The position numbers were made by a program, and so were the translations under genes. From Owenia fusiformis (taxonomy: Eukaryota; Annelida; Polychaeta; Sabellida; Oweniidae): a DNA stretch of 64,000 nt. Every line of letters begins with the position of its first letter. Positions within the stretch are counted from its first letter, which is position 1. Location of the stretch: positions 5,837,341 through 5,901,340 of the forward strand of contig CAIIXF020000008.1 in assembly GCA_903813345.2 (NCBI GenBank). The letters run 5' to 3'. Under the pieces are notes generated by a model. The model did not search any database. It was not told the origin of the DNA and saw nothing but the letters and a program-made list of their open reading frames with translations. Below, piece by piece: positions 7,101-62,260 of the stretch.

Positions 7101-10100
7101 AAACATAGCATTTTGAAATTGGCCGCCATTTTTACTTGTGCTATTTTACGTTTCTTACTATAACTCAAAAAGTAATAGAGCGATTTTGCTCATATTTGAT
7201 TTATGAACACTCACAAGCATGGCACAATGTTTTATGCCACTTTGGCTAGAAGGTGGCCATTTTGAATTTTTGCCATAACTGAAAAAGTTGCAGAAGGATT
7301 TTGTAAAATGGCAGCCATGACTGTTCGATGGGATTTGCTACGCTTTGGCATTGCTGTTGTCTAGTTCCCATCTAAGTAAGTTTTTAACTTGTTCACAATT
7401 TGGGATGCAACAGGACTTGATGCAAGAAATGTAATAGAGTTATCACAAGTTAGCTTAATTACATTGCATTTGTCAAAAGTTAGAAAAGATTAAATAATTT
7501 CACCAACAACAGACTTTTAGGCAAATTTTTCGATACAAGTTATATTTTACTGTTTGTTTTATCGTTTACAATTAGTTGTTAACAATGATAATGGTTTTCT
7601 TCTCTTACTGCTGGATCATTCTTCTGTGCAAACACCTGCAAAATGAAAAAACAACTAGAATTCTTGGTTTATGCTTTTTGGCCATTCCTGGTTTGAAAGA
7701 TCACCCAATTTCAAAATGGCTGCCACTCTTATATGAAATACTAGTACCAATCGAGTTTTGTACTGAAACTCTTGAACAAAGAATTATTACTTTTTCAGTG
7801 AGCCCAGTTGTAGCACCCATTATACTGTTTATTAAGAAAGGACAATGATGCTATATTGTTGAATTTTTGTTTTCCATATTTATTTCCCTCAATGGATAAA
7901 AAAACTAAATAGCAAGGACAACAATGAAACACAACCCTGATTCTAAAATGATAAAGTGTACAAAATTAGAATATGCTTTACCATGTTCCCCTATATTAGG
8001 AAGTGTAAACTGGCCACTACCATCACATATGAGGCCATCCCCACATGGACACTTCCATTCTGTACCAATAGGGGGAGCTATTGCACCATCAGTTGCTATC
8101 AGACAATCTGCAAAGTCAGAATAAATTAATATACTCGTATGTAAGTTCAGTCAACTCAATCAAATGATTAATAGACCCATCATAACATGAATCAATATTA
8201 TGAAAGTGACTTAATTTGATTAAATCCTGAATTGTATATTACATGTATTCATATTGGTAGATTGTGTCATACATTTGTACACTTCTGTCTACACAGCCAA
8301 CATAATTCGGTGCCGTTTCGGCATCGGAAAAATTTGGCGCTGTTCCGGCACCATTCTGGCACCGAAACCTTTGAACACTTAAATTTGCTACCGGACTAGC
8401 CAGTCCATTTGGTGCCGAAACGGCATCGAAAATCAGATTGCATTTTGGGGGTGTAAACGGGATGCACCAGTTCTGAGTGTTGCCTATGTTAAACCACAAT
8501 TTCCTTAGAAATAAATTATCATAGTTCTTACCATCCCCGATTTCTCCAAATGTTCCACATATCCCTCCATTGTAATCTAAACCTCGTTTTCCTCGAAGTT
8601 GTACTTTAGTTAAACAGCACCCATTCTTACATTGTTTGGAATTCTTGCATCTTTTCACTCTATCTGGTTCTATTGTAGATGCCTTAATAAAGTTTATAGC
8701 GTGAGTATTGGTCATGCTTGTGTGGTGTTTCTCATGAGAACATATTTAAAACACCCCTGAATAACTGTTGCAAAAGCATCAAGGGCAACATTTATAAAAA
8801 AGATATAAGAAACCTTAGAACTTCAGTTTCAATTGAATATCGTTAGTCAATTGAGATATTAATAAGTAATTTTTCATTCCATTCTATGCTGTTCTTGCGT
8901 TAAAAATTGTAAATTGTCAAAATCATCTTAGATTTTACTCACCAAGGTAGCCAACACAATTAAGAAAATAACTGTTTGAACAACTCCTCTCATTGTCTGT
9001 GAATACTCTGAAAGTTTTCAGTCCAAGTACAAGGGTTTGGTTTTATATGTCAGTGACTCACTTGAAGTTTTCACTTGTTACTATTAATGGAAAATATGTT
9101 TAATGTGATTTGAATCACTGATCAGCAATGACAAAGTTTCAGCAAACAAGTCATTGTTTCATGTTAGTAATAATTATGACTATGAAAATGGTGATATTAT
9201 AGAGAGTGCATTTGTCTGTCAGTCTGGGCTATAACTCAAATACCACATGTCTGATATCGCGGTTATTTATCCCATTAAACAAAGTTCAGAGGGATACAGG
9301 GCACGCCTCCGTCCATCCGGGATTCCGGGTGATAACTCAAATACCATTGGACAGATTTGGTTCACATTTTATATGCTAATGCCAAGAGAAGCAAATCTGC
9401 CCAAGAATAAATTTTTAAGATGAAGCTGAATTTCAAAATGGGTGCCATTTTTCATTAAAAAAAACTTTCGTAACTTAAATACAAGTTGAAGAATTTGGTT
9501 CAAGGAGCACTGCTTGAGAAGGAATTTCCCAGATGACAGCTGAATATCAAAATGGCTGCAATTTTTCTTAAAAGAGTACAAAAAGTGAATGAATTTGGTT
9601 CGAATTTTGCTCCGTGGAGCTGTTTTCTAGTTTATAATTTCTTTCATTCAATGACTTTCATTTATCGTAGTTAAACATTTATCCTAGTTAAACAGATCAT
9701 CAAATATGGTTGGATTGGATACAATAAACTACAATTTACATGTCATGGTGAAAAGCAAGATTCATGTCTCTGTTTGAAATCTAATCAAATAAAATGAATT
9801 GATGGTTTGACTTGATATATATTTACAATTGTACCACAACGACCTAGTATTTGAGAATCATGCAGTCATTTTCTTATATAGTAATCGGTGAACATCAGGG
9901 AAAAATAAGATTATCAACAACGTTTTGGACAAATAGTGAAATTGTTCAATACAATTTTATTCTATGATCTGTCTCAATTTTATGTCCACAAAGATAATGA
10001 TTTTGTTCTCTTACTGCTTTATCTTCACTCTGTGCAAACACCTGTAAAATAAAAATGTAATAACTTCCGGGAAGTAATGATGATAAAACACTTCGCTATA

Positions 10101-13100
10101 TGAATACAAGGGCAGCCAGATGATAAGATTTACAGTGTACAATATCATTCAGATACAATTTTTTTTTTAATTTTGTAACTTAGGACTTAATTAGGATTAC
10201 CATTTTTACAGTTCCAGAATTAAACCTTTATTCATTGTATTTCTACATCTAATAAATCAGATCACCACTGTGACAAATTGATATCACAAACTTTTTATGT
10301 TCCATGTTTAAATGGAAAAATTGTATTTTACCTACCTATTTTACCTAGTCCTCCTACATATGTAGGGAGATAATTTCTTACACACTTAAGTGAAGACTGA
10401 CAGGGGCACATGTACAACATTCCCTCATCATTAGAGCTAGAACCTGCACCCACCAAGCACCCTGCATTCAATGAAATCAAATTGAACTTCTTCAGTACAA
10501 ACTTTACAGCGTTGTCCTCATTATATCCACTGATTTATTTATTGCTTAGATTACCCCTTGCTTTTTGGGTTTTCAGTGGCTATATAATAGCATTATCATT
10601 CATATTGTTGAAACATTCTGGAATATTCAATAAGTTGTAAAAGCTGTTTTATGATGAATACAGTTATCTTGAGTAAAAGTGTCTCCTTACCACTTCCTTT
10701 GACACCTAACGGGGTGCAGATTCCTCCTTCCAAGTAACTTGGCAGTTGTTGCCTTTTCCAGGGCCTCAGTAATCCTATCAAGCTCCTCTTGCCTAAAGGC
10801 TGGTTGTTAGCCACACAGCATGCATCGATACCACAATCTTTTCCCGTCTTACATTCCTCAGCTGAGCATAACTGTAAAACAAAGAAAACTTGTTTTAGCT
10901 CTTGTCTATTGGCTGTTGGTTGGCAGCACAATAGGCGCATGGGCCATCGTGTTCCACTCTCTTACATTGCTCCGCTGAGTATTGATTGGAAACTGTAATA
11001 TAGAGAACACTCATCACATCTTTCTCACATACATGGACTGTAGCAAGCTCACAGACCATACTATGTGCCACACAGGAATGTGCAAATTGCTTCTAAAAAA
11101 AGTAAAATTAAAACTTACCAAAAATGTTGTGAAGATAACAAGAAATACTTTCATTGTACACATCTATAGGTTTCAGCTTCCTTGGATTTAAGATATCCTT
11201 AATTATTTTGAAGTTGTGCAGACCTTATTGGATTAAAAACTCATCATTGGATAACTAATTCATTTTGAGTTCATCAAAGATTCAATTAAGATTTAATCAA
11301 AACTCTTTGTTTGGTAAATCATATTATCTTTTAACAAATGTCACATCTAATGCTCAGAAATATATTAATGGCTGAAATTGATAACCATCACTGTTCCTAA
11401 CATTAAATTGTACTGAGTATCATGATAGCTTGATAGTGTGCCATATGCACTGTTCCATAACTAGTTACTTTGACGGAACATCAATGTAACAAATGGATGA
11501 ACTTCCTTTTTTTATTAATCATTTTTATTTCAAGTTCATATATTATAACATTTAATATCATACAATGAAAATTCAACAAGATGAACTTCCTGGTTGCGAG
11601 TTTTTTGTTTTCTCGATTTAAACCTTAACCCTTAAGAAAAAAGCCATGGTAAACATGGTGCGTCCATGGTAATCCATGATTTTCCATGGAAATTCATGGT
11701 TTTTAATGGTATTTTCCATGGAAATTCATAGACTCCCATGGTTATTTTCCATGGATATTTACCATGATTTTCCATGGTAATTAGTGGTTTTGTAATTGGT
11801 TTTTCATGAATGTGTCATGCTTTTTACTATGACACATGGAGATGTAAAATCAACAATTTTGGTCGGATTTGTATTTACCAAAATCTTCAAAATGAATGTA
11901 TTGATGATTATCCCACTTAGACTGAGACGAATCATTGAGAAAAAAGGGTGGACATTTCATTTTTTAGGGTTTAGCAAGAACATTTAATGAATGTTAAACT
12001 CAGCTTCCTTACAAATGAGAAAATATGTGAAAATTAGGTAACTTTTCTTTTAAAAAAATATGATAATGCAGCACAGAGTTGGCCATAAGATTACAAAGAG
12101 AATTGTTAAAAGGGCTCTTGGATCAAGACTAGATAGAGATTGCTGATTTTTTAGGCCAAACACTTCTTTCCTTTGAAAAAGATTAAGTCAAACTAGCCCA
12201 AGCTCTGTTTTTTCACTACTTTAATTTTTCAGTTATAAAAATCAATATGAAATAATTTAGTAAATAAATAACTTATTTTCTTAAATTACATTTCTTACAT
12301 TTGAGAATGCAATCAAAAACCATGGTTTCTTTCTTTGAAGTTGAGGAAACTGCAATCAAAAGCCATGGAAGTCAGTTGATTGCAATCGAAAGCCATGCTT
12401 TTCCATGGTTATTTCTTTGATGTTTCAGAAAGTGCAATCAAAAGCCATGGTTTTCCATGGTTTTTCTTTTGATCTTTTAAAAGTCCATACTTTTTGGTCT
12501 TGGGGGTGCAGAAGAAAAGAATAATACATTATGTTTCTAAATGAAATTATCCTTTACAAGCACATTATCTGAAAAAATCAACAGAAAGTATATACTTTTT
12601 CAGAATTTTGACTTGAAATTGAGATTGGGGATAAACACAAGTATATGGCTGCAAACTGAAATGTAATACCTAAGTGATCAAAATTCAATTTGTCTTGGTA
12701 AGAATATTATATATAATCCATTTAAAAAGAAGTTGCATGAAGGAGAGGGGGGGGGGGTAACAACACCATTTGGCTTAAAACATGAATCATATACCTTGAG
12801 TAATCAAAAATTGATTTGTCTTTGAATAGGAATATATAATCATTTGCATATTTTTTAAATATTTGGTTGCTATTGTTCTTTGTTAATTAGGTTTTTTAAC
12901 TCTCAAATTAATGTTAAAAATTAATCTCTGCGACGATTATAATAGTTAATTTGCATACTTCTTAAATATTCTGATCTTAATTGTTATTATTTATGATAAT
13001 CTTGCACTCCCCTGTGCTTCCTCTTCAGTAATTATTATTGTCTGTGAGTGTAGACAGTGCAAGTCAAAAACTCATTGTTGATCAAATAAAACCAAATAGG

Positions 13101-43500: not shown

Positions 43501-46500
43501 ACATATATAACAATAGGTATAAAGCACGGTTCAAACTGAGGCTTCTCCTACCAGAGACAATGGGATATAACTGGCCAGACAACAAGCAAGGTACAATATG
43601 AAGAACGTAACAACATTTTGATTGGTTCCTTTACCTGACCATATATGGACTCAGAACTCAGTAGAGGTAAAGAGGTCTCTTAAACGCTTCAATTTCAGGG
43701 AATGTGAATCAAATATGTGAGAGTCAAAGACATTATGGTGGCTACCCTCATCTTCCACATCTGTAGTGAGGAAGAACAATTAGCCTGAAGAATATACTTC
43801 TGTAAACTGATGAAAAATCTTTAAATCTTTTATTCCATGAATTTATACACATTCATCATTATACATTAATTATACAATAAATGTACCGTACTTTTAAACC
43901 AGGCATAATGAGAAGCATGGCTTTAGACTTAACTCAATCTTATAAGAGGTTATAAAAATTCATCCGAAAGCACAAGAATAGACTTAGCACTGCTAGAATA
44001 ATAGCCCAAAGCCCATTATATTTACAGTGTAACATCACAATGAACTAGAATTCTAGAATATGACAGGGATAATTTCTATAACCAATATGAGAAGGTCATT
44101 TCACACATTAAAGGGACCCAGTTCCCATTTTGAGCCTAAAATACCCCAACTATGATTCAGAATAAGACTTCCAACTTGCTATATCCCAGGATTTGATACA
44201 TACTTATATTTTGTGTGAATATTGTGTTCTGTAAAGTTTTAATATTTACATAAAGTTTTGTATCAAATTCTGTCAAGTTGTAATATCTTGTATGTATAAA
44301 AAGGTTTGAATCAAATTATATTAATGGTGAAAATTCTATTCTAAATTTTTAGAGATATTGGGGTCTTAAAGGGTCAGAAATATGCACTGAGGTTAGGCAC
44401 TTTAACACACCACATACTTGTATAGAGTAATTCAAAGAAGCAGAATCAAGAAATAAAATTATGATTATTATTGATTCAATGATTGATTGTGAGTAAAAGT
44501 CAATATATACAGAGTGTCTCAAAACTAGGTATGTGTACCTTTGGAGTGTTTAGCACTGGTGAGTGGCTTGCCATTCAGCTCTGGTGTATGTGTAGAGGAA
44601 GTGGGAGATGGTAAACTGAAGTCCATACCAGTGATGTCAGAACCTACAAAACAACAATGTGATTTGTCACAACACCCACAAAACAACACTTATTCGTAAT
44701 TTGAGAACCTACAAATTTAAGTAATTTAAGTTAGGTACTAAATTTAAGTAAAGTTCTTCAATACTATTTGTAGAATATTTTTAAGTATTATTTTATGACT
44801 ATAATTCAAAAAGAAAATACTTGTATATTTATACTTCATATATTTAGAAGTTATAGTAAGGATAAGTAAAAATCAAAGTATGGTTTCAAACCTGGTGCTA
44901 AGACTGGTGCAAAGACATGACCAGCAAACTCCTCAAACATAGTGGCTTGTTTATGTTGTTGTATAAGAGTCTCTAAGTACTTGGTCCTCTCCTCATAGCT
45001 AAACACTGTGAAGGAATCTATTTAGTTATTTAGCCATTGATTGAGATTGAATATGAATTCAACACAAAACTGTGGTATGCTTCAATACAAGTTTCCAAGA
45101 CTTCTCATACACGTACAGGGTTAACCAAAACAGCAGCCCTCTATTATGGAATAATTTTGTCAGTAATAATGGATTCCTCTTGTTTTTTAGTAGCGAGTTC
45201 AATTGGTCAAAAAGTTATGTACTCACAGATATTTAAAGAAAAACACTCAGTCTAGGCTAGGCATACTCTCACATTAGCTTTAGGAAAATTCAGGTTCTGA
45301 AGTATGGTTGATCTTTCTTTACAATATTTTCCAAACTATTTTAGCACTCTATTCTGAGGCTTTGGAGATCTTAATCCATCTTAGCTACAGTCTACCAGCA
45401 CTATTAACTACTTAGATGACCTCAACATAATAACATAGTATGTATAATTAGTAAAGGATACAATGCCATATAGTAGGGCATAGTGGCACGTTTAGTTCTG
45501 CTTGCATTGATAGCTGTAGCCCTGACCAGGCCTGGTAGGATAGCATGGTCAACAATAGCACCATCAAACAATGGACCAAAGTATGGCACCTACAATATTA
45601 AGACATCATACTTGTATGAATACTTTATTAAATACATGTATCCCCAAAATCTTTTACTGATTTCATTTTGTAATTCTATATCATGTTTCAATTATTTGGA
45701 ATACATGAAATAACAAGGCAATAACATGCAAAATGTCACCACATGCCATTTGTTACAGATGTCAAACTCACCACCAACCACCATCCACCAAATGCCGAAC
45801 ACATTCCACAAAAAATTGGAGACTATAACACTTGTGGTGGTGACATAAAGTGTTTGAATGGCAAAACATTTTGGAATATCACAAATAAATCAAGTATCAT
45901 TTAAAAAATTTTAACTGACATTTGAATGTACCTCTGGTTTCCTGTCTATGTGTATCCTGTAAAGGCCATTGTGCAGAGGGCTGATTACAATGATGACATC
46001 ACCAAACTCAGTAGGTATAATACCACGTCTGTAGTCTCTTGTATGCTCTGACCATATTATGTGAACCTCATCATTGCCCAAGTGGCGCAACTAATGACAA
46101 AAAATATTACAACACAATCATGTTAGGTACAGTACAAATTAATCATCTAAAGTATTTAATTGGAGATAAGTTGAAGGAAATCTTACAAGTCATTTTGTAA
46201 TTCCATCTACTTAGTAGCTCATAATATGGAATTTGTAGAGTCTTGAAAGTCCATGTTGATAATAATAGGGGGCACTTAATGGAATAGCATAAAAAAAAGT
46301 AAAATTCCATCAAAATCCCATCAAAATATATTTTAAAAGATATCTGGCACACCGATTTACAGTATGCCAGTATGCATGTGCACAATATTACAAAAATGGT
46401 CACATGTATGTTTATACACTGTATAAGATTGGATATGATGATGATGAACTTATTATTTACATATATTGAATTATTTCATTGTACATACCTTTCTGTGTCT

Positions 46501-49500
46501 CTCATCCTCAGTGTCGGAAGGCATCCTTGTCGACACATGGAATATCACCTCTAGTGTTGATGTGGCATAATAGGGGGCACTGGTGCCTGTGGATTTGTTA
46601 CGCTGAAGCCCACCTAGGAACCCACAGTGAGTTTCTAGGTCAACCTGAATAAATATAAAATTTTTCATTTAATTTTGGAGTCTCTCCTTCAAATATTCAG
46701 TAAACATTTCTTAGTGTGACATGTATGTAACATGCATTCCATATGTATGAAAAGCAAGAAATAAACTAAAATCAAAAGTGACTTCCATCTGAAGATGCTG
46801 ATGACCAGAAGCAGACTAAGAAATGGCACACAAATTGTAGGCCAGAGGCGAAATAACAAGGGATGGAGCAAGGGCAAAATCAGAGTCTTTTAATATTGTA
46901 AGTAGGTTAGATCATTTTCAATGTTATATACCTCCCATCCTAGACCAGCCAGGAAGTCCTCGTACTGTTTACTACCTCCTTTATTAGAGAGCAGGCTCTG
47001 TTTATCCTCCTGACCTGGCCCTATGTAAAACACTGCAATCTTGTGGGTCTCACGGCTGAAATAATACATGTACCTATCAATAAATAATGCATAGAAATAT
47101 AAACAAGAAGATCTGAATTCTACTCTTTAAATAATTAATTTGTGTTGTGTTTTCTGTTGATACCAACTAAATGTATCACTCACATATTCGTTTAACCTCT
47201 TGAATCCTGAGGCTCTAAAATTGCTTGAAACCAGAGAATTTTTCATTTTTGCCACCTTTTGACATTTGTTTTCATACCTATACAACTTTAGATGCTCAAC
47301 TTAGTAAAATCAGATGGCAGAGATCATTTCTACACGTTTTAAAACAATTTTTTTGTAAATTGGATGAAAATTGTTCAAATAAGAGCAATTTTTATGAAAA
47401 ATTTTGTGACAGATTTTCTCGTCCCTCTGGGTTTCAAGGTCATTTAAAGGTAACGTGAAATCTCGTCATTCTGGGTAGTCAAGAGGTTAATCAAAAAATT
47501 CATAAACTGTTAAATTAGGAATCTGCTTCAAATGGGCATATTAACCTTTTGCAGTTTAATGGCATAGATATACATGTATTGACATCTTTGGACAACATAC
47601 AGGGTGTCAAATAAGTCCCGTCCCCCCTGCTACAGCTAGAACCTTAACAGACGGCACTTAGTGTGATATACCATTGGAAAGATCATCCAAAGTTATGTTA
47701 ACTCACCAACTCTCAAGTATTTTGAATGAAATTTACCTATATTTTTATTATGTCTTTTATAGTTAACATGCCCTCCTTTTAGTAGCTTTTTTGCGTCAAA
47801 ATGACAAGGATATGACCTCAGAAATACGTCAAAAAGTTCATCTTTTTCGCATTTTACTTGTTACGAAAAGGTTTTCACAACTTTCCTTGCACCTTTATTT
47901 TCTGAACATCTAACCCTATCCAGAAATTGCTTAAATTCATCGCCATAAACATATTTAGTCATCTTTTGGTCCCTTGACCTTTCCAATACCCGATTCTTAA
48001 AATCCGGCCAAATACGCCAAATTGCCATGTTTCTAGGCATATGGTCACCTCAATTGATACAATGTAAAAATTGGTGAGCTTGATTGACATGTGTCAGATA
48101 TATGCCAATCAACGTAACTTTGGAAGACCTTTCCAATGATATATCACACTTGGTACCAAATATCTTGGATTTGGCTGTAGAGGGGGGGACGGGACTTATT
48201 TGACACCCTGTATATATCTTAGATATTCTACATGGGACCAGATGTTATTTATCTTAACTGCAATAATTCTCTTATGTACAAAGTCTCAATCTGGAAGAAT
48301 ATGACAAATGCCCCCAACTCACCACCGTTGTGAATCCAAGTGCTTCAACTCTCTTAGTAATTTCTCATTTTTCTTCAGCAGATCAACTTGAGCACTGCAA
48401 TTACAAACAAGGTTTCATCATACAAAATGTCACCACCTGCATTTCTTGGACACCGACTGCTGAGCACCAACCATCGAATTTCAAAAACTGTCCACAAAAA
48501 TTTGGAGGCTATAGCAACAGTGTCTCGAACAATCAATGGCATGCAGTGAAGATGAAAATACATGAAGAAACTATCTCAAGCATTTCCATTTGTATAATGG
48601 ATATTCTATATAGGATTTGGAAATACACTTTTAAACTAGTTCCAAAAAGAAATAGTTGATATTTTATTGGTTTAAAATATTTTTCATTTCATGTTTCCCT
48701 TGTAGGCTCTCTTTCTGGTATATGAATATTTAAAAAAAATACCTCAATCAAAACTAAACATTTTAGAGTGGTTTTAATAATGCACAAAATATAGTAGTAC
48801 TCCAGGCTTACCGTTTCCCCCAAGACATAAGGCCTAGCTGGTTGACCATGTGCCTACACAGATGAAATGGAGAGTTCTCATCTTTACTAATAGATGGCGT
48901 GAGAGGCTGGGCAACCATGCTGGAATAGAATAAATGTCATTTTGGGATTGACTGTAAATAAACAAAAATAAATATAACAACTGGATTTGTTTAAGCTATT
49001 GAAAACATCTGAAATATAACAATCATTACAAAAAGTTTGAGACTCTGTAACAATATGTCACCACTCAACTCTCAACTTACCTATTGTCAGCTTTGTGTTT
49101 CATGAAATAGTCCATCTCCTCATCTCTCTGAGTGAGTACAGTGGACACCATCTTGCTCTCAAGGTGACAGTTCAGGGAGCTGGGGGCTGCAGGTGGGATG
49201 TTGAGGGGCTCCCCAGGGTGTAGCAGACATTCAGGGCTTGTGTGTCCAATGTATTGCAGCAGCTAAACATAAGATTAAGACTATTAATACAGGACTATAC
49301 ATAGACATTTCAGGGAGCTAGGTGCTGCAGGTGGGATATTGAGGGCCTCCTCAGGGTGTAGCAGACATTCATGGCTTGTGTGTCCAATGTATTGAAGCAG
49401 CTGTATAAATGTAAGAATAAGTTTTCCTGCTTTTTAACATGTGTAGCTTAAGACAAAAAAATGCCAAGAAAGTCAAGTTTTTCTCATTTGTTCCCATTTT

Positions 49501-52500
49501 CATAAATTCTTGAATTTAGGCAAACCGTATTTGATGTTCTAGGTGATAAGCATCTCTGCAATATATGTTCGAATAAGATCTATAAATCACGAAAGAATAT
49601 TATAAAATTGCATGCTTTTCAGTACTTACATCATTGAGGTTATCGTGGTGGTCCTGAGTAGTGCTGTAGTCTGGTAGTTCAGTGGGATTGCGTACCACTG
49701 TGATATGTCTGTCATACTTTGCCTGGAACTCCCCTAGCACCTCCTCTGTTAGACTTTTACGATCCCCAACATGAAATCTTGGCTGTGGCTCTGCAACATG
49801 CAATATATTACTCAGTAATCTACAGTTGTATATGTAACATAGATCCATTACATTACTAGACACAGTATATTGCATATATAAAGGTTGAACTCTTACCTCC
49901 TTATAGAAGAGTTTGATAGAATAGCACATCATCAAAATTACTTCAATAAAGCCTCATACACAACAGACTTGAAGATTTTCTTCAGTCCATGCATGATATT
50001 GCATATTATTGAATAAAGTCTTCACTGCCACATTAAGGATATTCATGTCATATAAATATGCTCATATACTGGACACAATCATACCTTCTGGGAATGACCC
50101 TGCTCTGCACCTAGGGGGTCCATAGAGTATAGAGCTGTCCCAGCAGAATTTACCACAACTATCCCTAATGATTGCCCTTGTAACTGTTTTGGCAGTTGTT
50201 AACCCTGCAGTAACCCCACCTCCTGGCATATCCTAAGAAAAACAAAGATTATGATGTACAGACTACACCAAGACTTTTCAAAAGGGAAGTTGCCTGAGTG
50301 GAAATATCACTATTAGTCTCCCTGTCTTCTCTACAGGATATCGTTAACAAAACGAAGACATTGTGATCAAATAGATCTAATTTAAAACTTTGTACAACAA
50401 AATTAAACATCCACAGCATTGGAGCAAACTGTTGAAAATTCAAAAATTACATGTCAACCTGTAGAAAATTAATTATTATCTACTTAAAAAGGAATATTTC
50501 ACACATTTTGATCAATACAGGTTAAGTTAGGATTTAACATGGGATCTGCCATTTTTGTTAAATTTCATGAAATTCATCAATTTTGACATCAAATTTTGAC
50601 CCAATGTAATGGAGATATAACATTGAAATGTTGCAGACTTTATAGGGAATAGAATCAAGATACAGATTTATTTTCTGTATTGCGATTTCTTTTGTTCCCC
50701 TCTTAGAAAATAGTCGTTCAAACAAATATGGGGGTTAACATGTAAACCTATGAGGAAAACCACTGGTCCTTAACTTTTTTTGAGGAGTATATAAGAACAG
50801 AAAGAGCTTATACAAACCATAGCAGGAACCTCAACAAACGAGACTAGAGTTGAATTGTTCAGTACAAAGAACTGCACATTATTTTGACTAAATATCTCAG
50901 TATTGAGATCTTCCATTTGTTTAGCTGCCGAGTCATGCTGTTCCTGAACTTCGCTGTTCAATCTACCAGCACCACTCCCCATTGGAAAATGTCCCAAGTG
51001 GTTAACTAAATGCGACAGCGCAGTCCTAGCAGCTAGTTTTACAATATTGTTTTCAGTAATTTTTGGAATATCTGAACCAGCCCTTCTATGGCCTTTAATA
51101 ATATCAATATGGTCGTTGGGAGTTTTTGGCGTGTTTGGCGTCATTGTTCCATCACGTAATGAATCAAATTCATCATCTTGAATAAGTTCTGAGAATGAGG
51201 CCACGCTGGCTTTTGATGACATTCCATGTGGACTGACTCCATTTACTGCAAGATTTAGCACCTGGAAACGTTTAAAATATAAACATGTGAAATATACTAC
51301 TTTTAGAAAACTATGAGACTGAAATGCCATAGATTTTTACTGAAATATCATACATTTTTACTGAAATGTCATACATCTTTGCTGAAATGTCATACATTTT
51401 CTATAGGTGGTGAAATAAGAAGTATCCTTTAAAAGACTGTCGTTATATCCAAACTAAACTAACACCCCAGAGATTGTTGGAACATTTCACACTAACTTAA
51501 AAACAACGAACAGACCAACGGACAGATGGATGCCTGGTCGATCCCATAGGCTCACTGTGTGAGCCAATAAGTACCATATTCACTTGAATGTGGTATTAGG
51601 TGATGAAGAAATGAGAATGCTTTAAATCAATAATTGTATCTTACCCGAAAAACTTTATATATAAGAGTTGTATTTGACTCTGTGAGACCTAGTAGCATCT
51701 CTATAGGGACCCTCATGGTCCACTCAAGCAAACAGAATATCATAGACACCATGAGTGTCTTATCATCCTCATGACTGTGCTCTAGTCCTGGTAGAAGGGA
51801 TGATATAGTGGATGCTGTGACCTAGAATGAAGAATATTTCAAAGTTTCAACTATGTCTGAATCTGCACATATGAAGCAAATGTTTGACAATATTGTATAC
51901 ATTGGTATGGTTATTCATTGATTAGAAACTGGACTGCTAAATTCAGTTGGTGAGAATGACCCTTTCACAAGTGATATTCCAGGAAGCCCAAATTGCTAGT
52001 GGAGTATCATCATGTGAAAGTGTCACAGGTATTCACCAAAAATTGACTAAAAATTGTTTTATTATAATATTACTGCCAAGCTTACCATCATTAATATTAT
52101 GTGCGTCCAAAACATGTGTGATACAGTAATACAGATTCTGTATCCCAATGCAGTATGTCTTGTTTTGTATAAATATCAAATGTGCATATCAAATCTTGTG
52201 AAATTTCAAACTCATTGAATAATACTTCACTTCAATGAAAGCTTCCTTTCATAGGTTTATTCATAGGTTCAAACTCATTGAATAATACATTACCTCAATA
52301 ATTCTCTTTGGCAAGTCTGGCTGATGGTTGAGTAGGGCATCTACATGGTCACATAGCAATAATAACATGTCTGCTGCTACCTGAGCAACATTCTTCTGAT
52401 TGAACTACAACATAAACAAGTTCAAGTATGAGTATCTTTGTAAGTCTGGCTGATGGTTGAGTAGAGCATCTACATGGTCACATAGCAATAATAACATGTC

Positions 52501-55500
52501 TGCTGCTACCTGAGCAACATTCTTCTGATTGAACTACAACATAAACAAGTACAAGTGCACCCTACAGTATGAGGATGTTTTAAACCTTACCTTTCACAGT
52601 TCAATTGGACAAGGTTTTAGTTTTGGTTTAGCTTCGAATGGATTTGGCCAAACTGAAAAGTGTACTATTTACTGAAAAACTTCATTTATAGATAATGTAC
52701 AAGTATGTGAATCGCTTTAGTGCAGAAATATATTCCATTGTTTTTCTCTTTCTCTTACTTTTATAATGTCATGTTACTTACCCTAAGAGTGACTAGTAAA
52801 ACATTAATGGCTTCTTTCAATCTGCAGTGCATTGTTCTATGTGTTAGCTCCTCATATAAGAACACACCAAGACTACTGATTGCAATACATCTGAAATATA
52901 CATATATAAAACATTAATGGCTTCTTTCAATCTGCAGTGCATTGTTCTATGTGTTAGCTCCTCATATAAGAATACACCAAGACTACTGATGGCAATACAT
53001 CTGAAATATACATATATAAAACATTAATGGCTTCTTTCAATCTACAGTGCATTGTTCTATGTGTTAGCTCCTCATATAAGAGCACACCAAGACTACTGAT
53101 GGCAATACATCTGAAATATACATATATAAAACATTAATGGCTTCTTTCAATCTACAGTGCATTGTTCTATGTGTTAGCTCCTCATATAAGAACACACCAA
53201 GACTACTGATGGCAATACATCTGAAATATACATATATAAAACATTAATACACATATATAAAGTAAAATCAAATCACTTAACCCTTTATTTTAGAATACAC
53301 AAGCCATTCAATTAACATGGCTCACATACTTTCAAGTTTTTATCAAACTACAGTCACTTTTAAAATTCTGAAATTAAGATAATGCTCTGGCTATATCAAT
53401 TCACAATTTCAGTTGCAATTCAATCAATATGCTCCCTACACTCCTATATACTAGAAAATGGTACAACATTACATACCTGGCCAGACCAGCTGGTTCCTTC
53501 TTTCCTGCCTTCAATAGCATTGTTATAATATGATCCTTTGAGTCACTTGCTGTGAGGTGTGTTATATCAACAGATTTGGGTTTTAATACAGGCATCTCTC
53601 CAAATTGATTAGGAAAACACAGTAGTGAACCAAGCAGAGATATAGCCTCGGCTCTTGGTGTCTGGAAGCAATAAAACATGATTTAAATGTTAAATGCTTT
53701 AATACAGGCATCTCTCCAAATTGATTAGGAAAACACAGTAGTGAACCAAGCAGAGATATAGCCTCGGCTCTTGGTGTCTGGAAGCAATAAAACATGATTT
53801 AAATGTTAAATGCTTTAATACAGGCATCTCTCCAAATTGATTAGGAAAACACAGTAGTGAACCAAGCAGAGATATAGCCTCGGCTCTTGGTGTCTGGAAG
53901 CAATAAAACATGATTTAAATGTTAAATGCTTTAATACAGGCATCTCTCCAAATTGATTAGGAAAACACAGTAGTGAACCAAGCAGAGATATAGCCTCGGC
54001 TCTTGGTGTCTGGAAGCAATAAAACATGATTTAAATGTTAAATGCTTTAATACAGGCATCTCTCCAAATTGGTAAGGAAAACACAGTAGTGAACCAAGCA
54101 GGGATATAGCCTCGGCTCTTGGTGTCTGGAAGTAATAAAACATGATTTTAATTTTAAATGCTTTAATACAGGCATCTCACCAAATTGGTAAGGAAAACAC
54201 AGTAGTGAACCAAGCAGGGATATAGCCTCAGCTCTTGGTGTCTGGAAGTAATAAAACATGATTTCATTGTTAAATGCTTTAATACAGGCATCTCACCAAA
54301 TTGGTAAGGAAAACACAGTAGTGAACCAAGCAGGGATATAGTCTCGGCTCTTGGTGTCTGGAAGTAATAAAACATGATTTCAATGTTAAATGCTTTAATA
54401 CAGGCGTCTCTCTAAATTGGTTAGGAAAATACAGTAGTGAACCAAGCAGGGATATAGCCTCAGCTCTTGGTGTCTGGAAGTAATAAAACATGATTTCATT
54501 GTTAAATGCTTTAATACAGGCATCTCTCCAAATTGGTAAGGAAAACACAGTAGCGAACCAAGCAGGGATATAGCCTCAACTCTTGGTGTCTGGAAGTAAT
54601 AAAACATGATTTCATTGTTAAATGCTTTAATACAGGCATCTCACCAAATTGGTAAGGAAAACACAGTAGTGAACCAAGCAGGGATATAGCCTCAGCTCTT
54701 GGTGTCTGGAAGTAATAAAACATGATTTCATTGTTAAATGCTTTAATACAGGCATCTCTCCAAATTGGTTAGGAAAACACATTAGCGAACTGAGCAGGGA
54801 TATAGCCTCAGCTCTTTGTGTCTGTAAGTAATAAAACATGATTTCAATGTTAAATGCTTTAATACAGGCATCTCTCCAAATTGGTTAGGAAAACACATTA
54901 GCATTAGCGAACTGAGCAGGGATATAGCCTCAGCTCTTTGTGTCTGTAAGTAATAAAACATGATTTCAATTTTAAATGCTTTAATACAGGCGTCTCTCCA
55001 AATTGGTTAGGAAAATACAGTAGTGAACCAAGCAGGGATATAGCCTCGGCTCTTGGTGTCTGGAAGTAATAAAACATGATTTCAATGTTAAATGCTTTAA
55101 TACAGGCGTCTCTCTAAATTGGTTAGGAAAATACAGTAGTGAACCAAGCAGGGATATAAGCTCAGCTCTTGGTGTCTGGAAGTAATAAAACATGATTTCA
55201 TTGTTAAATGCTTTAATACAGGCGTCTCTCTAAATTGGTTAGGAAAATACAGTAGTGAACCAAGCAGGGATATAGCCTCAGCTCTTAGTCTCTGGAAGTA
55301 ATAAAACATGATTTCATTGTTAAATGCTTTAATACAGGCGTCTCTCTAAATTGGTTAGGAAAATACAGTAGTGAACCAAGCAGGGATATAAGCTCAGCTC
55401 TTGGTGTCTGGAAGTAATAAAACATGATTTCATTGTTAAATGCTTTATACAGGCGTCTCTCTAAATTGGTTAGGAAAATACAGTAGTGAACCAAGCAGGG

Positions 55501-57392
55501 ATATAGCCTCAGCTCTTAGTCTCTGGAAGTAATAAAACATGATTTCATTGTTAAATGCTTTAATACAGGCGTCTCTCTAAATTGGTTAGGAAAATACAGT
55601 AGTGAACCAAGCAGGGATATAAGCTCAGCTCTTGGTGTCTGGAAGTAATAAAACATGATTTCATTGTTAAATGCTTTAATACAGGCGTCTCTCTAAATTG
55701 GTTAGGAAAATACAGTAGTGAACCAAGCAGGGATATAGCCTCAGCTCTTGGTGTCTGGAAGTAATAAAACATGATTTCATTGTTAAATGCTTTAATACAG
55801 GCGTCTCTCTAAATTGGTTAGGAAAATACAGTAGTGAACCAAGCAGGGATATAGCCTCGGCTCTTGGTGTCTGGAAGTAATAAAACATGATTTCAATGTT
55901 AAATGCTTTAATACAGGCGTCTCTCTAAATTGGTTAGGAAAATACAGTAGTGAACCAAGCAGGGATATAAGCTCAGCTCTTGGTGTCTGGAAGTAATAAA
56001 ACATGATTTCATTGTTAAATGCTTTAATACAGGCGTCTCTCTAAATTGGTTAGGAAAATACAGTAGTGAACCAAGCAGGGATATAGCCTCAGCTCTTAGT
56101 CTCTGGAAGTAATAAAACATGATTTCATTGTTAAATGCTTTAATACAGGCGTCTCTCTAAATTGGTTAGGAAAATACAGTAGTGAACCAAGCAGGGATAT
56201 AAGCTCAGCTCTTGGTGTCTGGAAGTAATAAAACATGATTTCATTGTTAAATGCTTTAATACAGGCGTCTCTCTAAATTGGTTAGGAAAATACAGTAGTG
56301 AACCAAGCAGGGATATAAGCTCAGCTCTTGGTGTCTATAAGAAAGTGCATTGAGAGAATGAAAGATGACTTTGAATGAACAAATGTAAAACACAAACGTT
56401 TTACTGCACTTTGAAATTCTGTTTTTATAGATGTCTCTCATGTAAATCACTTTCCAGATTAAGTCTCAAATGGTATTTTGTTTTTCACATTATGGCCTCC
56501 ATGTTTGATTTTAAATGTAGATACAATCCACAGAGTTAACATAAAATCTAAGCAAACTAAAAATATTTTCTTGAAATTAATCAACAATCTTTTAACAACT
56601 TCAACTCTAATTTATATGAAAACAAGATATGGTACAAGTATGATTCATAACACACTTCTATTTTTCTTATTTTTAAAAGTATCCAAAAAGCTATTTTATA
56701 GTCACTTCAAATCGAATGTTTGCTATTTATGTGTTTATGTAGCACTTACCTCTTTAACATTGGTGCTAGCAACCACTGTGCTTGCGGCATGTATGAAGTC
56801 TAACATAAGCATAGTGTTACCATCAAGGGGTGTGGAGAAAAACTTCAGTCCACATCCCTGCACCAACTCATTTATAACATCCTAGAATATAGAAAAGAAA
56901 ATTTATCGGATACAAAATCTTAATGCTTCATCATCAATCAAAATTGTATGTATCTAATTATTGATACTTAATTTAATAACCATGTAATTAAATTGTTTGA
57001 CATAATCAAGTAGCAACATGTTCAGCAGCGACAAAATCTTCACATTATAATATAAAACTTCATCAAAATATTACATAAATAGTTAATGGTCAAAAATGAA
57101 GTTAAATACCATATTTTATCACAATACCAACACTACCTAATACAAAAAGCCTCAGTTATTCTGAGAATACATTACTCTTTACAAAGAGTGTTTTTAGAAA
57201 TACAGGGTGAGCAAAATGGAATAATGTGTACCAAACCTGATCAGAGTCAACCAGACTGTAGTGTAGCACCCTGTAGAATTGTGACAGGTGATCCATCCCC
57301 AGTATGCTGTCATGGCGACGTATAGTTAACTCACACAGCAGTCTGTAAGCTAAAAGTTTACCCTTCTTGTAAGTTTGGGGTAGATTTAAAGC
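40586..57392 (-). CDS. RALGAPA1: Ral GTPase-activating protein alpha subunit, C-terminal 976 residues (19 exons; 5' part not seen)
   Basis: Catalytic subunit of the RalGAP complex, which pairs with the beta subunit to switch off RalA/RalB. Exons, 5' to 3': 57237-57392, 56750-56881, 53477-53661, 52782-52890, 52294-52404, 51645-51821, 50818-51261, 50085-50232, 49630-49790, 49081-49262, 48812-48919, 48323-48394, 46932-47055, 46489-46644, 45932-46090, 45462-45589, 44892-44998, 44539-44643, 40586-40752 (TGA). All phases join and the total is 2931 nt. Landmarks in family order: '[14 protein letters not shown]', '[14 protein letters not shown]', '[13 protein letters not shown]', '[13 protein letters not shown]', '[12 protein letters not shown]', '[15 protein letters not shown]', '[13 protein letters not shown]', 'GPLFDGAIV', '[12 protein letters not shown]'. 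The GND motif carries the asparagine thumb of Rap/Ral/TSC2-type GAPs. The last two exons add a Ser-rich tail. RALGAPA1/2 are vertebrate duplicates, so the symbol stands for the pre-duplication gene. Confidence 0.95.
43325..43560. repeat. Two tandem units of about 115 bp in a RalGAP intron
   Basis: 'aataataataaaggacctc' followed by 'acaatgggtataaagcat' occurs at about 43361 and again at about 43474, with 'actgagtaag' versus 'actacgtaac' between. Confidence 0.7.
45733..45846. mobile_element. MITE with ATGTCACCAC / GTGGTGACAT ends in a RalGAP intron
   Basis: 114 bp, 10-bp perfect terminal inverted repeats, same family as 35999-36095. Confidence 0.75.
47598..48212. mobile_element. 615-bp mariner-type MITE in a RalGAP intron
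   Basis: Ends TACAGGGTGTCAAATAAG at the left and its inverse CTTATTTGACACCCTGTA at the right, extending into matching G/C-rich bases (about 31-bp TIR). TA at both borders and the ACAGGGTG start fit Tc1/mariner. The interior has no transposase and includes matching 'acctttccaatgatatatcacactt' arms (in inverted form near 47660 and 48130). Confidence 0.8.
48425..48530. mobile_element. Diverged MITE of the ATGTCACCAC family
   Basis: 'aaaatgtcaccacctgca' followed by 'ggacaccgac', 'accaaccatcg', 'tccacaaaaatttggaggctata', in the order of the 45733 copy. It sits directly upstream (gene sense) of the exon at 48323-48394. Confidence 0.55.
49300..49410 (-). repeat. Extra diverged copy of acceptor plus 5' half of RalGAP exon 49081-49262
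   Basis: Exon start 49262 has a partner at 49400 (138 bp upstream) with acceptor 'tatacag' and about 98 coding bases ('[18 protein letters not shown]'). It is about 90% alike by eye and lacks a donor. Confidence 0.9.
51329..51402. repeat. Minisatellite, 23-24 bp unit, three to four copies
   Basis: 'tgaaatgtcatacat' and 'tttttac' alternate three to four times in a RalGAP intron. Confidence 0.8.
52430..52550 (-). repeat. Single extra copy of acceptor plus most of the following RalGAP exon
   Basis: 'gttgtag' plus about 92 bases of the exon (true start 52404) recur 129 bp upstream (start 52533). The copy keeps the reading frame '[19 protein letters not shown]' but stops before the gtaatg donor. 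Confidence 0.93.
52790..53247 (-). repeat. Four-unit, 110-bp array of acceptor plus 5' part of the next RalGAP exon
   Basis: Exon-start positions 52890 (true), 53000, 53110 and 53220. Each unit has 'tatatttcag' and about 95 of the 109 exon bases ('[17 protein letters not shown]' and on), then jumps back into intron sequence before the donor. Confidence 0.95.
53583..56340 (-). repeat. 24-unit, 116-bp tandem array of acceptor plus 5' half of a RalGAP exon
   Basis: Unit 1 includes the true exon start (53661, acceptor ttccag). Its last about 79 coding bases plus 37 intronic bases repeat every 116 bp out to 56340, apart from a 6-bp insertion near 54900 and a 1-bp loss near 55447. Each unit encodes '[14 protein letters not shown]' to about 'PVLK' or a variant, preceded by 'tttattncttccag'. 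The real donor (53476) lies outside the unit, so the 23 extra copies have acceptors but no donor. Units next to the exon are identical; distant ones diverge. The strings of about 70-residue open frames here are products of this repeat, not genes. Confidence 0.97.
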
Positions 57393-57524: not shown

Positions 57525-59340
57525 TTTTTTTTTTTTTATTAAAAATATTTATTCTCTAAAATTAAAATCAAATACATAATAACACTTGACACTTTTAATA
57601 AGTGTATCAGCGTGAAAACATTTAAATATTAACCTGAGTCAAATGGAAATGAGAAAAAAAGAACAATTTAAAAATATTTACTCAGTTAAATGAGAATAAA
57701 ATTGATAACAATATATAAAATCTACATATATGTTTGTCAGTAATTCAGTTCAGAATAGGTTGATGTCATATGAATTTTAAAATTCTTTTTAAAACAGTTA
57801 ATGGAAGGTAATGTTTTCAAAGAAGTTGGCAGATAATTCCAAAGCTGAGCACCTAAATATTTTATTGAGTTTTGACCTATAATTGTTCTAAATTTTTTCA
57901 TGTGAAGGCAATTTTGGAATCTTGTCTCATGTTCATGAAATATCAAATTTGGAGTAAAATAATTTTCAAATATGTCAAAAGGAAAGCCATCGGGTTTTGT
58001 TGTGTATTGATAAAGAAATTTTGCAACTTCAAGCTTATGTATGTCAAAAATATCTAGAAAATTGAGTTGTTTAAAAAGAGGTGGGCTATGTGCTAAAAAG
58101 TCAGAATTTGTGATTATTCTCACTGCACGTTTTTGTAACAAAAGCAATTTATTCAAAAAGGTTTTACATGCATTACCCCATATGATGTTGCAATAGTTCA
58201 ATTGTGATAATATAAGTGAATTATAAATGGTAATCATGGTTTTTGTATTCAATTTATATTTAATTTTTCCCAGAATACCAATAATTTTAGATATTTTATG
58301 TATAACCTTATTTATGTGCTCATTCCATTTTAATTTACAATCAATTGTTACTCCCAGAAAATTTGTATACATTACTCTTTCAAGAATATTACCCCCTATT
58401 TTTATATTAAAATCTTGATTTTCATCAATATTTAACTTTGATCTTGTAAATAGCATATAATTTGTCTTGTCTATATTCAAAGAAAGTTTATTTGATTTGA
58501 ACCATTCTAATGTCTTTTCCATTTCTAGATTTACATTTCTATATAGATCATGAAGGTCTTTGTTTGAACATAAGATATTTGTATCATCTGCGAAAATAGT
58601 AAATTTAAGAATATTTGAAACCTTATGTAAATCATTTATATAGAGAATGAATAAGATGGGACCTAAAACAGACCCTTGAGGTACACCACAAGTGATAATA
58701 TTTTCTTCAGATAGAGTGTTGTTAAAAGAAGTAATGATTTTCCTATCAGATAAATAGCTTTCAAACCAATTTTTTGCGACATTGCGAATTCCAAAATTTT
58801 CAAGTTTTTTTAGAAGAATTTCATGATTTACTGTATCGAAGGCTTTCGATAAATCTAAAAATATTCCAATAGCATGAGTTGAGCTTTTATCTAGAGATAT
58901 CCTCACTTCTTCCAAGAAGGAGAGGATTGCCATATAAGTTGAATAATGTTTTCTAAAACCAAACTGATTTTTGAATAAAAGTTTGTATGTTTCAATAAAT
59001 GTTATTAATCTATTTTTCATGATCTGTTCTAAGAGTTTAGAAAAGACACTAAGTAGAGATATAGGTCTATAGTTTGAAAATTTTGAAGTATTTTCTTTTT
59101 TAAAAAGTGGGATAACTTTGGCTGTTTTCAACTTAGTGGGAAAAACCCCTGTATGGATAGACAAGTTTGCTATATGAACAAATGGTAAAAGTAAGTTATT
59201 TCTTGCATGTTTAACTACTATTGGTTTGAATTCATCTAGGCCTGGTGAGCAATCTTTTAAAACTGACATTAAATTTTCGATTTCATTCTTACTCACAGGA
59301 GTAAGTTCTAAAGAAGATTCATTGATTTCCATAAATGTAA
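57525..59340 (-). mobile_element. LINE (non-LTR retrotransposon), 5'-truncated, with open reverse transcriptase
   Basis: An uninterrupted 531-codon frame at 59332-57737 encodes the reverse transcriptase. Blocks in order: 'KVIPLFKKEN', 'NYRPISLLSVFSKLLE', 'NQFGFRKHYST', 'FLDLSKAFDTVNH', 'CGVPQGSVLGPILFILYINDL', catalytic 'FADDTN', and the downstream 'LNYCNIIWGN' and 'LLLLQKRAVRII' blocks typical of the CR1/jockey-like group. No endonuclease domain is present, so the copy is truncated at the 5' side. The minus-strand 3' end runs into an AATAAAA tail (T run at 57525-57537 on the plus strand). It lies in the same orientation as the RalGAP gene, upstream of exon 57237-57392. No stop in the RT suggests a young insertion. 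Confidence 0.92.
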
Positions 59341-59423
59341 AAGGGGACGTTTTTGAATTTTAACCATTAGATGTTTCCTATAAATCATGCCATATTTTTA
59401 TCCACACAGAAAATACAATATAC

Positions 59424-60435: not shown

Positions 60436-60689
60436 GTAAGGTTTAGTACAATTCTAACTAGAAACTTTTTTATGGACACCATAAAAAGGTGTATATACTG
60501 CTTGGTTAAAGATAAATTGAATACATGTATAACTAGACATGTAAATTGAACAAGTTCAATTTAAGACTCCAGATTTAAAACTTTTTTTAAGCTGAGTCAT
60601 CCAAAATACTGTAAGCTGAGCCATTCAGAATAAGCTGAGTCATCTAGAATACAGACATTTAGACAACTCTTAAGTAAGTTATCTTTGTC

Positions 60690-62260
60690 TCCATTGGCTT
60701 AACATGGGGATATCATAATATCGACTTTTCGAGACTTCAAACAACTATAACTATCTAACCAGAATTTGGGTCGAAATTTGGTTTGCAGATTCGAATTTCT
60801 GAGAAAATTCTACGTTTGTGTCATAACTCATACATTAAATTTTGAGAACTTTTTGTGTTGACCTACTTTCCGGACGCCATTCCTCAAAATCGGTAAGAGT
60901 AATCAAAAAAGACTAATAGTGAATAGTGACAAAGATAATTGACATAACATGGGATATCAAAATACCGATTTTTTTTAATTTTTCAAAACGCCATTACTTC
61001 CAAACCGAGTGTCGGATTGATTTGCAGATTCGGATTCCTGAGAAAATTCTACCCTTAATTCATAACTCATACGTTAAATTTGGAGAAACTTTCATGTTGA
61101 CCTACTTTTCGGACACTATATCTCAAAAGTGGGTCAAAATACTTTCTGACGGCAAAAGGCTAACACCATTAGCACACTCTTTGCTACCTGTATCCAAAAT
61201 TTTGAAGCAAATAATTAAAGTGTAGTGTCAGAATCGCAAAAATAAGTTAAAACTATAAATTTGACCTAGATTTTGACCTAGGCATTTTGGTGTCCAAATT
61301 GTGAAGCTAGCTAGGTTTTGAGGTCCCTTTCTTTTATAGGCTTTCATTATGTAAAGCTGTACTTAGTCTATATCTCGTATTTTACACTTCAAAAAAATCT
61401 TTTTCCCATTGCCATAACATGGAGCACCAAATTTAGCGATTTTTGAGCTTTCAAAACGACATAACTTCCGAACCAAAAGTCGGATTGAAATTTGGATTGC
61501 AGATTTGGATTTCTGAGAAAATTCTACCCTTAATTCATAACTCATACGTAAAATTTGGAGAACTTTTCAGTTTGACCTACTTTTCGGACACCATATCTCA
61601 AAAGTGGGTCAAAATACTTTCTGACGGCAAAAGGCTAACACTATAAGCACACTCTTGGCTACATGTATAAAAAATTTCGAAGAATATAATTAATCTGTAG
61701 TGTCAGAATCGCAAAAATAAGGAAAAACTTTGAATTTGACCTAGATTTTGACCTAGGCATTTTGGTGTCCAAATTTTTATGAAAAGAAGGTCTTGTGGTC
61801 CCTTTCTTTTATGGGCTTCCATTATGTTTAGCTGTGCTTAGTCTATATCTCGTATTTTACACTTCAAAAAAATATTTTTTCCCATTGAATTAACCAAATT
61901 TAGCGATTTTTGAATTTTCAAAACGCCATAACTTCTGAACCGGGAGTCAAATCGAAATTTGGTTTTCAGATTCGGTATCCTGAGAAAATTTCCTATAAGG
62001 CTGATATCCTGGACATTGGATTCGGAGAACTTTTTTTTGGACCTCGTTTTCGGACACTGATATCTCGAAATCGGTTTGAGATACCAAAAAACTAAATCGA
62101 CCCTAGCTTTTCTACTTTTTTATGAGGAACACAATGAAAAAAACCCGGATCAAAAATATTGAAGGACGACCGAGATAATGGGAAAAAGTGACAAAGTACT
62201 GGATTTGACCTAGTTCTTGACCTTTGACCTAGATAAAAATTTGACCTAATTTCCCAGAAA
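60690..62260 (+). repeat. Tandem repeat, about 470-bp unit, four copies (first one short)
   Basis: Units start near 60700, 60944, 61415 and 61887. Shared order: 'cataacatgg', 'aaaacgccataacttccgaa', 'ggattgaaatttg', 'gagaaaattctaccc', 'gacctacttttcggacac', 'tttgacctagattttgacct'. Units 2 and 3 are closest. Short open frames inside are repeat-derived. Confidence 0.9.

Follow-up and report, generated by a model that had tools for sequence, protein, structure and literature searches.

An array of 24 acceptor sites at a RalGAP-alpha exon of Owenia fusiformis, apparently a large mirage outside amphioxus

Results

The window, by which the whole analysed stretch of 64,000 nucleotides from the annelid Owenia fusiformis is meant (contig CAIIXF020000008.1, positions 5,837,341 to 5,901,340), carries on its minus strand a gene that, judged by protein alignment, is RalGAP-alpha. 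Its spliced exons flanking the array described below align to residues 1028-1469 of chain A of PDB 9qwp, human RalGAP-alpha2 (E 6e-89), and the protein joined through the last array unit aligns continuously. The main features of this part of the gene are as follows (positions in the window).

56751..56882, minus strand: upstream exon B (DVINELVQG...NVKE), donor GAG|GTAAGT; boundaries set by eye
56335..56380, minus strand: intron end preceding the first unit, ending in TTATAG; beyond this AG it shows no match to the intron stretch that the other units carry
53582..56336, minus strand: 116-bp array of 24 units, 23 decoys and the start of the real exon (TRF, direct parsing)
53477..53661, minus strand: real exon C, 185 nt, starting at 53661 and ending at 53477, donor CAG|GTATGT
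45923..46647, minus strand: Rap_GAP (GAP-domain) exons, around 46.5-46.65k and 45.9-46.1k; each of the four duplicated exons lies upstream of them

Elsewhere in the window, the intron adjoining the 57.4k exon holds an open 540-aa reverse-transcriptase frame of LINE-like type (57740-59359, minus strand; RVT_1, E 9e-38), imperfect repeats of ~160-690 bp are clustered at 60681-62091 in an intron or flank on the RalGAP side, and between 5000 and 11000 the minus strand has several cysteine-rich frames resembling one another (e.g., 8242-8745 and 10599-10961), which perhaps encode small secreted proteins of one tandem family.

The array is a minisatellite with a period of 116, 23.7 copies and 96% matches according to TRF, and direct parsing of the minus strand divides it into units of 115, 116 or 122 nucleotides with 24 acceptors. 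Each unit consists of 36 nt of intron end closed by the terminal AG and 80 nt of exon start, and its intron part contains a TTAAC motif, which could be a candidate branch point, followed by a T-rich tract ahead of the AG. The last unit is the acceptor of exon C with the first 80 of its 185 nt. The preliminary description of a 116-bp minisatellite with 24 acceptors made from an intron-exon boundary, having captured the 3' splice site and about 79 coding bases of a RalGAP-alpha exon, was therefore correct in both respects, and such an array of exon starts with their splice signal is real in the assembly and striking. By DNA search the array sequence occurs at a single locus of the genome, in the one haplotype represented.

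In consensus, the decoy acceptors do not differ from the real acceptor of exon C. The donor of this exon matches CAGGTAAGT at 8 of 9 positions and is the single strong donor for 24 units, only the last of which continues to it, while the best GT within the decoys reaches 4-5 of 9 against the donor consensus (CCT|GTATTA, 4/9, in most of them). Twenty of the 23 decoys are devoid of a plausible donor; U15, U18 and U19 contain TTG|GTGAGA, a plausible one, which could define a frame-shifting cassette exon of 61 nt. The earlier statement that only the last unit has a donor is thus valid for strong donors but not for plausible ones. Splicing to any of the 23 decoy acceptors would bring in a stop 25-64 codons later, and with the Rap_GAP exons lying downstream, the anticipated truncation ahead of the GAP domain would indeed follow from mis-splicing. 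The exon would extend over 301-2858 nt through the decoy acceptors versus 185 nt through 53661.

Between the decoy exon stubs 20 changes were counted, 14 nonsynonymous and 6 synonymous, at an expected nonsynonymous share of 0.71-0.74 (p 0.81), so that the stubs vary neutrally. The AG is preserved in 24 of 24 units, as had been noted, but this is unremarkable and uninformative because only about 0.45 hits on its two bases are expected; selection on decoy AGs was dropped from consideration on this ground. The four 3'-most units are identical to each other, and the block U02-U05 is repeated as U09-U12, single differences aside. Such identical 3' units and multi-unit blocks fit unequal exchange, and the functional start of exon C accordingly shares in the turnover of the array. 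Inner units are homogenised and the cluster boundary is divergent, the intron before U01 being the divergent part.

Duplication of an acceptor together with the exon start is also present in three other exons of the same gene, D, E and G (52294-53220 and 49081-49400).

52782..52890, minus strand: real exon D, 109 nt
52797..53248, minus strand: exon D array, 110 bp, 4.1 copies; acceptor and 94 nt of exon D
52294..52404, minus strand: real exon E, 111 nt
52298..52556, minus strand: exon E duplication, 129 bp, 2 copies; acceptor and 5' part of exon E, decoy acceptor at 52533
49081..49262, minus strand: real exon G, 182 nt
49166..49402, minus strand: exon G duplication, 138 bp, 2 copies, 92% identical; acceptor and 97 nt of exon G, decoy acceptor at 49400

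The exon D array has decoy acceptors at 53220, 53110 and 53000 and a 12-nt homology at the junction, and all decoys of the three exons run into stops. Each local repeat found by self-BLAST of 44.5-57.4k at E 1e-6 covers an acceptor. A purely intronic 21-bp unit is repeated four times at 51318-51400 (TRF) with TTTCAG in each copy on the minus strand, forming an acceptor-like row that shortly precedes the RalGAP exon at 51260 and its own acceptor.

The supposed uniqueness of the array was not sustained, at least nine acceptor-side cases being present in the same genome, three of them in the further exons of RalGAP-alpha itself; the genes named below are read from translations and their families come from Pfam searches. 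Over the exon of its catalytic cysteine, a USP22-like gene carries a 150-bp unit 11 times (L077, G000:C9:8171400-8174000); this array stays in frame for 666 aa with no stop, and its read-through would yield a protein in which cysteine boxes recur. In a kinesin gene a 159-bp unit is present 18 times, in an ISWI-like SNF2 gene a 137-bp unit 5 times, and in a myosin gene a 122-bp unit 15 times or more, where the unit is a whole exon with altered donor (GTTTAG for GTTTGT); a second myosin exon is accompanied by a single decayed copy (L068). In all these cases the last copy is the one continuing to the donor, and at one myosin exon the arrangement is reversed, with the duplication on its donor side (L076). 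Searches of the genome for HECT, PTP, ABC, ion-channel and sugar-transporter families gave no additional array. A kinase tandem (L079, G000:C10:2256650-2257450) was ruled out as a case of this kind, since it comprises two complete adjacent exons, each with a donor, probably mutually exclusive exons of a GSK3-like gene. Two other repeated matches came to light in the course of the searches: a single myosin-head exon (profile about 25-84) that recurs many times across 8 kb at G000:C9:37986009-37994334, likely a cluster of alternative exons, and ~17 equal-score matches to the HECT profile (range 234-284, 161-aa frame) on most chromosomes, probably belonging to a mobile element.

The intron parts of the array units are short (about 15-54 nt). 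In the RalGAP D and E, USP22-like, kinesin and SNF2 arrays they correspond to the intron before the first unit, whereas for RalGAP C and G and the myosin array the match to the intron ahead of the first unit ends at the AG, similarity further on being no better than between unrelated intron ends. This mismatch in RalGAP C, G and one myosin array counts against simple duplication; either the boundary copy diverged while exchange kept the exon part alike, or the intron part of the unit came from elsewhere.

In the 180 kb of flanks around 60 survey exons, 6.3% is tandem repeat with a period of at least 25 and a score of at least 100; the share is about 2.3% less than 250 bases away from these exons, and the matched coding bases are free of such repeats. 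With such coverage of gene flanks some repeats lying over acceptors are to be expected, if they are tolerated. Duplicated exons amount to 4 of about 19 in RalGAP (exons counted by eye) versus 1 of 60 in the survey (p 0.011), which is somewhat higher also against the 6.3% background (p 0.03). The acceptor side prevails over the donor side 9:1 by exon (p 0.02) and 6:1 by gene (p 0.13), counts to which cases found partly through exon homology contribute, favouring units made mostly of exon.

Discussion

Tandem duplications of minisatellite type comprising an intron end and the 5' part of an exon are known in amphioxus as mirages, in the genes of Adh3, globins BflGb6 and BflGb9, TnC and PGBD5 (PMC3087553, PMC3902484). 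Units of the globin and PGBD5 mirages measure 108-160 bp (PMC3087553, PMC3902484); those of BflGb6 (150-160 bp) join intron end and exon start, and BflGb9 is a donor-side case (PMC3087553). RT-PCR showed splicing there to be regular, copy number varies between haplotypes, and inner units undergo concerted evolution, boundary units excepted (PMC3087553). The RalGAP-alpha array has the same structure, including the decoy splice signals and concerted evolution within the cluster: the tandem repeat spans an intron-exon boundary, and at the cluster end stands the authentic exon C (53661-53477), intact, open, with a strong donor and aligning to 9qwp. It differs in size (24 units compared with 6 and 3 in BflGb6), in affecting several exons of one gene, and in having counterparts in at least five genes; normal splicing was demonstrated for amphioxus, whereas the Owenia arrays are known here from DNA. 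Apparently, then, this is an unusually large new mirage outside amphioxus, in a genome that is rich in them.

Other systems share particular traits with it. Tandem and mutually exclusive exons likewise stand in a row, but each copy has both splice sites, as in the kinase pair above, together with coding constraint; the RalGAP-alpha decoys mostly have no donor, and their nonsynonymous share is neutral. A minisatellite of the human gene IFI6 (6-16, G1P3) is reported (Turri et al. 1995) to multiply donor splice sites, with multiple donor sites in the transcript, while in RalGAP-alpha it is the acceptor that is repeated. Intron gain by tandem duplication of exon sequence containing AGGT also multiplies splice signals but creates a new intron, the present array only lengthening an old one (PMC4974935).

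We regard it as quite probable that the array is a mirage whose decoys are intronic passengers, the last copy being selected by exon definition. A tandem duplication across the intron-exon boundary, in an animal genome rich in minisatellites, would have given rise to a minisatellite which then expanded by unequal exchange; the copy of exon C nearest to the single strong donor would be chosen because it alone makes an exon of normal size, and the 23 upstream copies would be spliced out as intron, varying neutrally, whereas coding falls to the last unit. Exon definition had been proposed in the preliminary description, and with the one good donor as its basis it is the likeliest reason for the decoys being ignored. 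Two points count against the explanation: the nearest decoy, U23, would yield an exon of 301 nt, still in the usual size range, and the GTGAG donors of U15, U18 and U19 could delimit the 61-nt cassette. As the matching exon end exists in the last copy only, the array is most likely harmless.

Could the decoys instead be used in a regulated manner, giving truncated NMD-prone transcripts and tuning the level of RalGAP-alpha by copy number? Their early stops and the consensus they share with the real acceptor would suit such a role. Variation in copy number is itself plausible by analogy, since amphioxus BflGb6 haplotypes have 6 and 3 units (PMC3087553). The neutral variation of the decoys, however, lends the suggested tuning no support; arrays of unrelated genes differ in frame, the USP22-like one being in frame and stop-free, so that no common output is to be expected; and amphioxus mirages are spliced regularly (PMC3087553). 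We consider regulation of this kind improbable.

A similarly low likelihood is ascribed to a mechanism linked with 3' splice sites, e.g., copying of splicing intermediates, as the maker of the arrays in place of random minisatellite formation. The excess of acceptor over donor cases, the short intron parts and the homology ending exactly at the AG in 3 of 8 arrays speak in its favor, but tandem repeats occupy 6.3% of gene flanks and their coverage drops rather than climbs beside exons, a donor-side case exists (L076), and the search partly through exon homology favored mostly-exon units. The wider proposition, that a splicing-linked mutational process in this lineage systematically couples tandem amplification to 3' splice sites and makes decoy arrays a genome-wide trait tolerated by the spliceosome, seems equally improbable.

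An assembly artefact, whether in the array as such or in its number of copies, is very unlikely: a draft genome of amphioxus did contain one misassembled mirage (PMC3087553), but here the variants that distinguish the units follow a structured order, the contig is chromosome-scale, and many loci have similar arrays with different units. Introns of 44 nt are below the usual minimum in animals, and this, along with a neutral nonsynonymous share and the 4/9 donor on which the idea was rejected, makes it extremely unlikely that the units are real in-frame mini-exons of 72 nt (24 codons) separated by 44-nt introns starting from CCT|GTATTA, even though 72 is divisible by 3, this stretch is free of stops and frameshifts in 24 of 24 units, and the 6-nt insertion of U13 preserves the frame.

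Read as a mirage, the array extends a phenomenon of amphioxus to apparently another animal, whose conserved genes hold arrays with up to 24 near-identical acceptors. Since the splice signal is alike in decoys and real site, what chiefly sets them apart is where each lies with respect to the donor, and such arrays are natural experiments on the choice of the spliceosome among identical 3' splice sites. They also place coding sequence in concerted evolution with its own non-coding copies.
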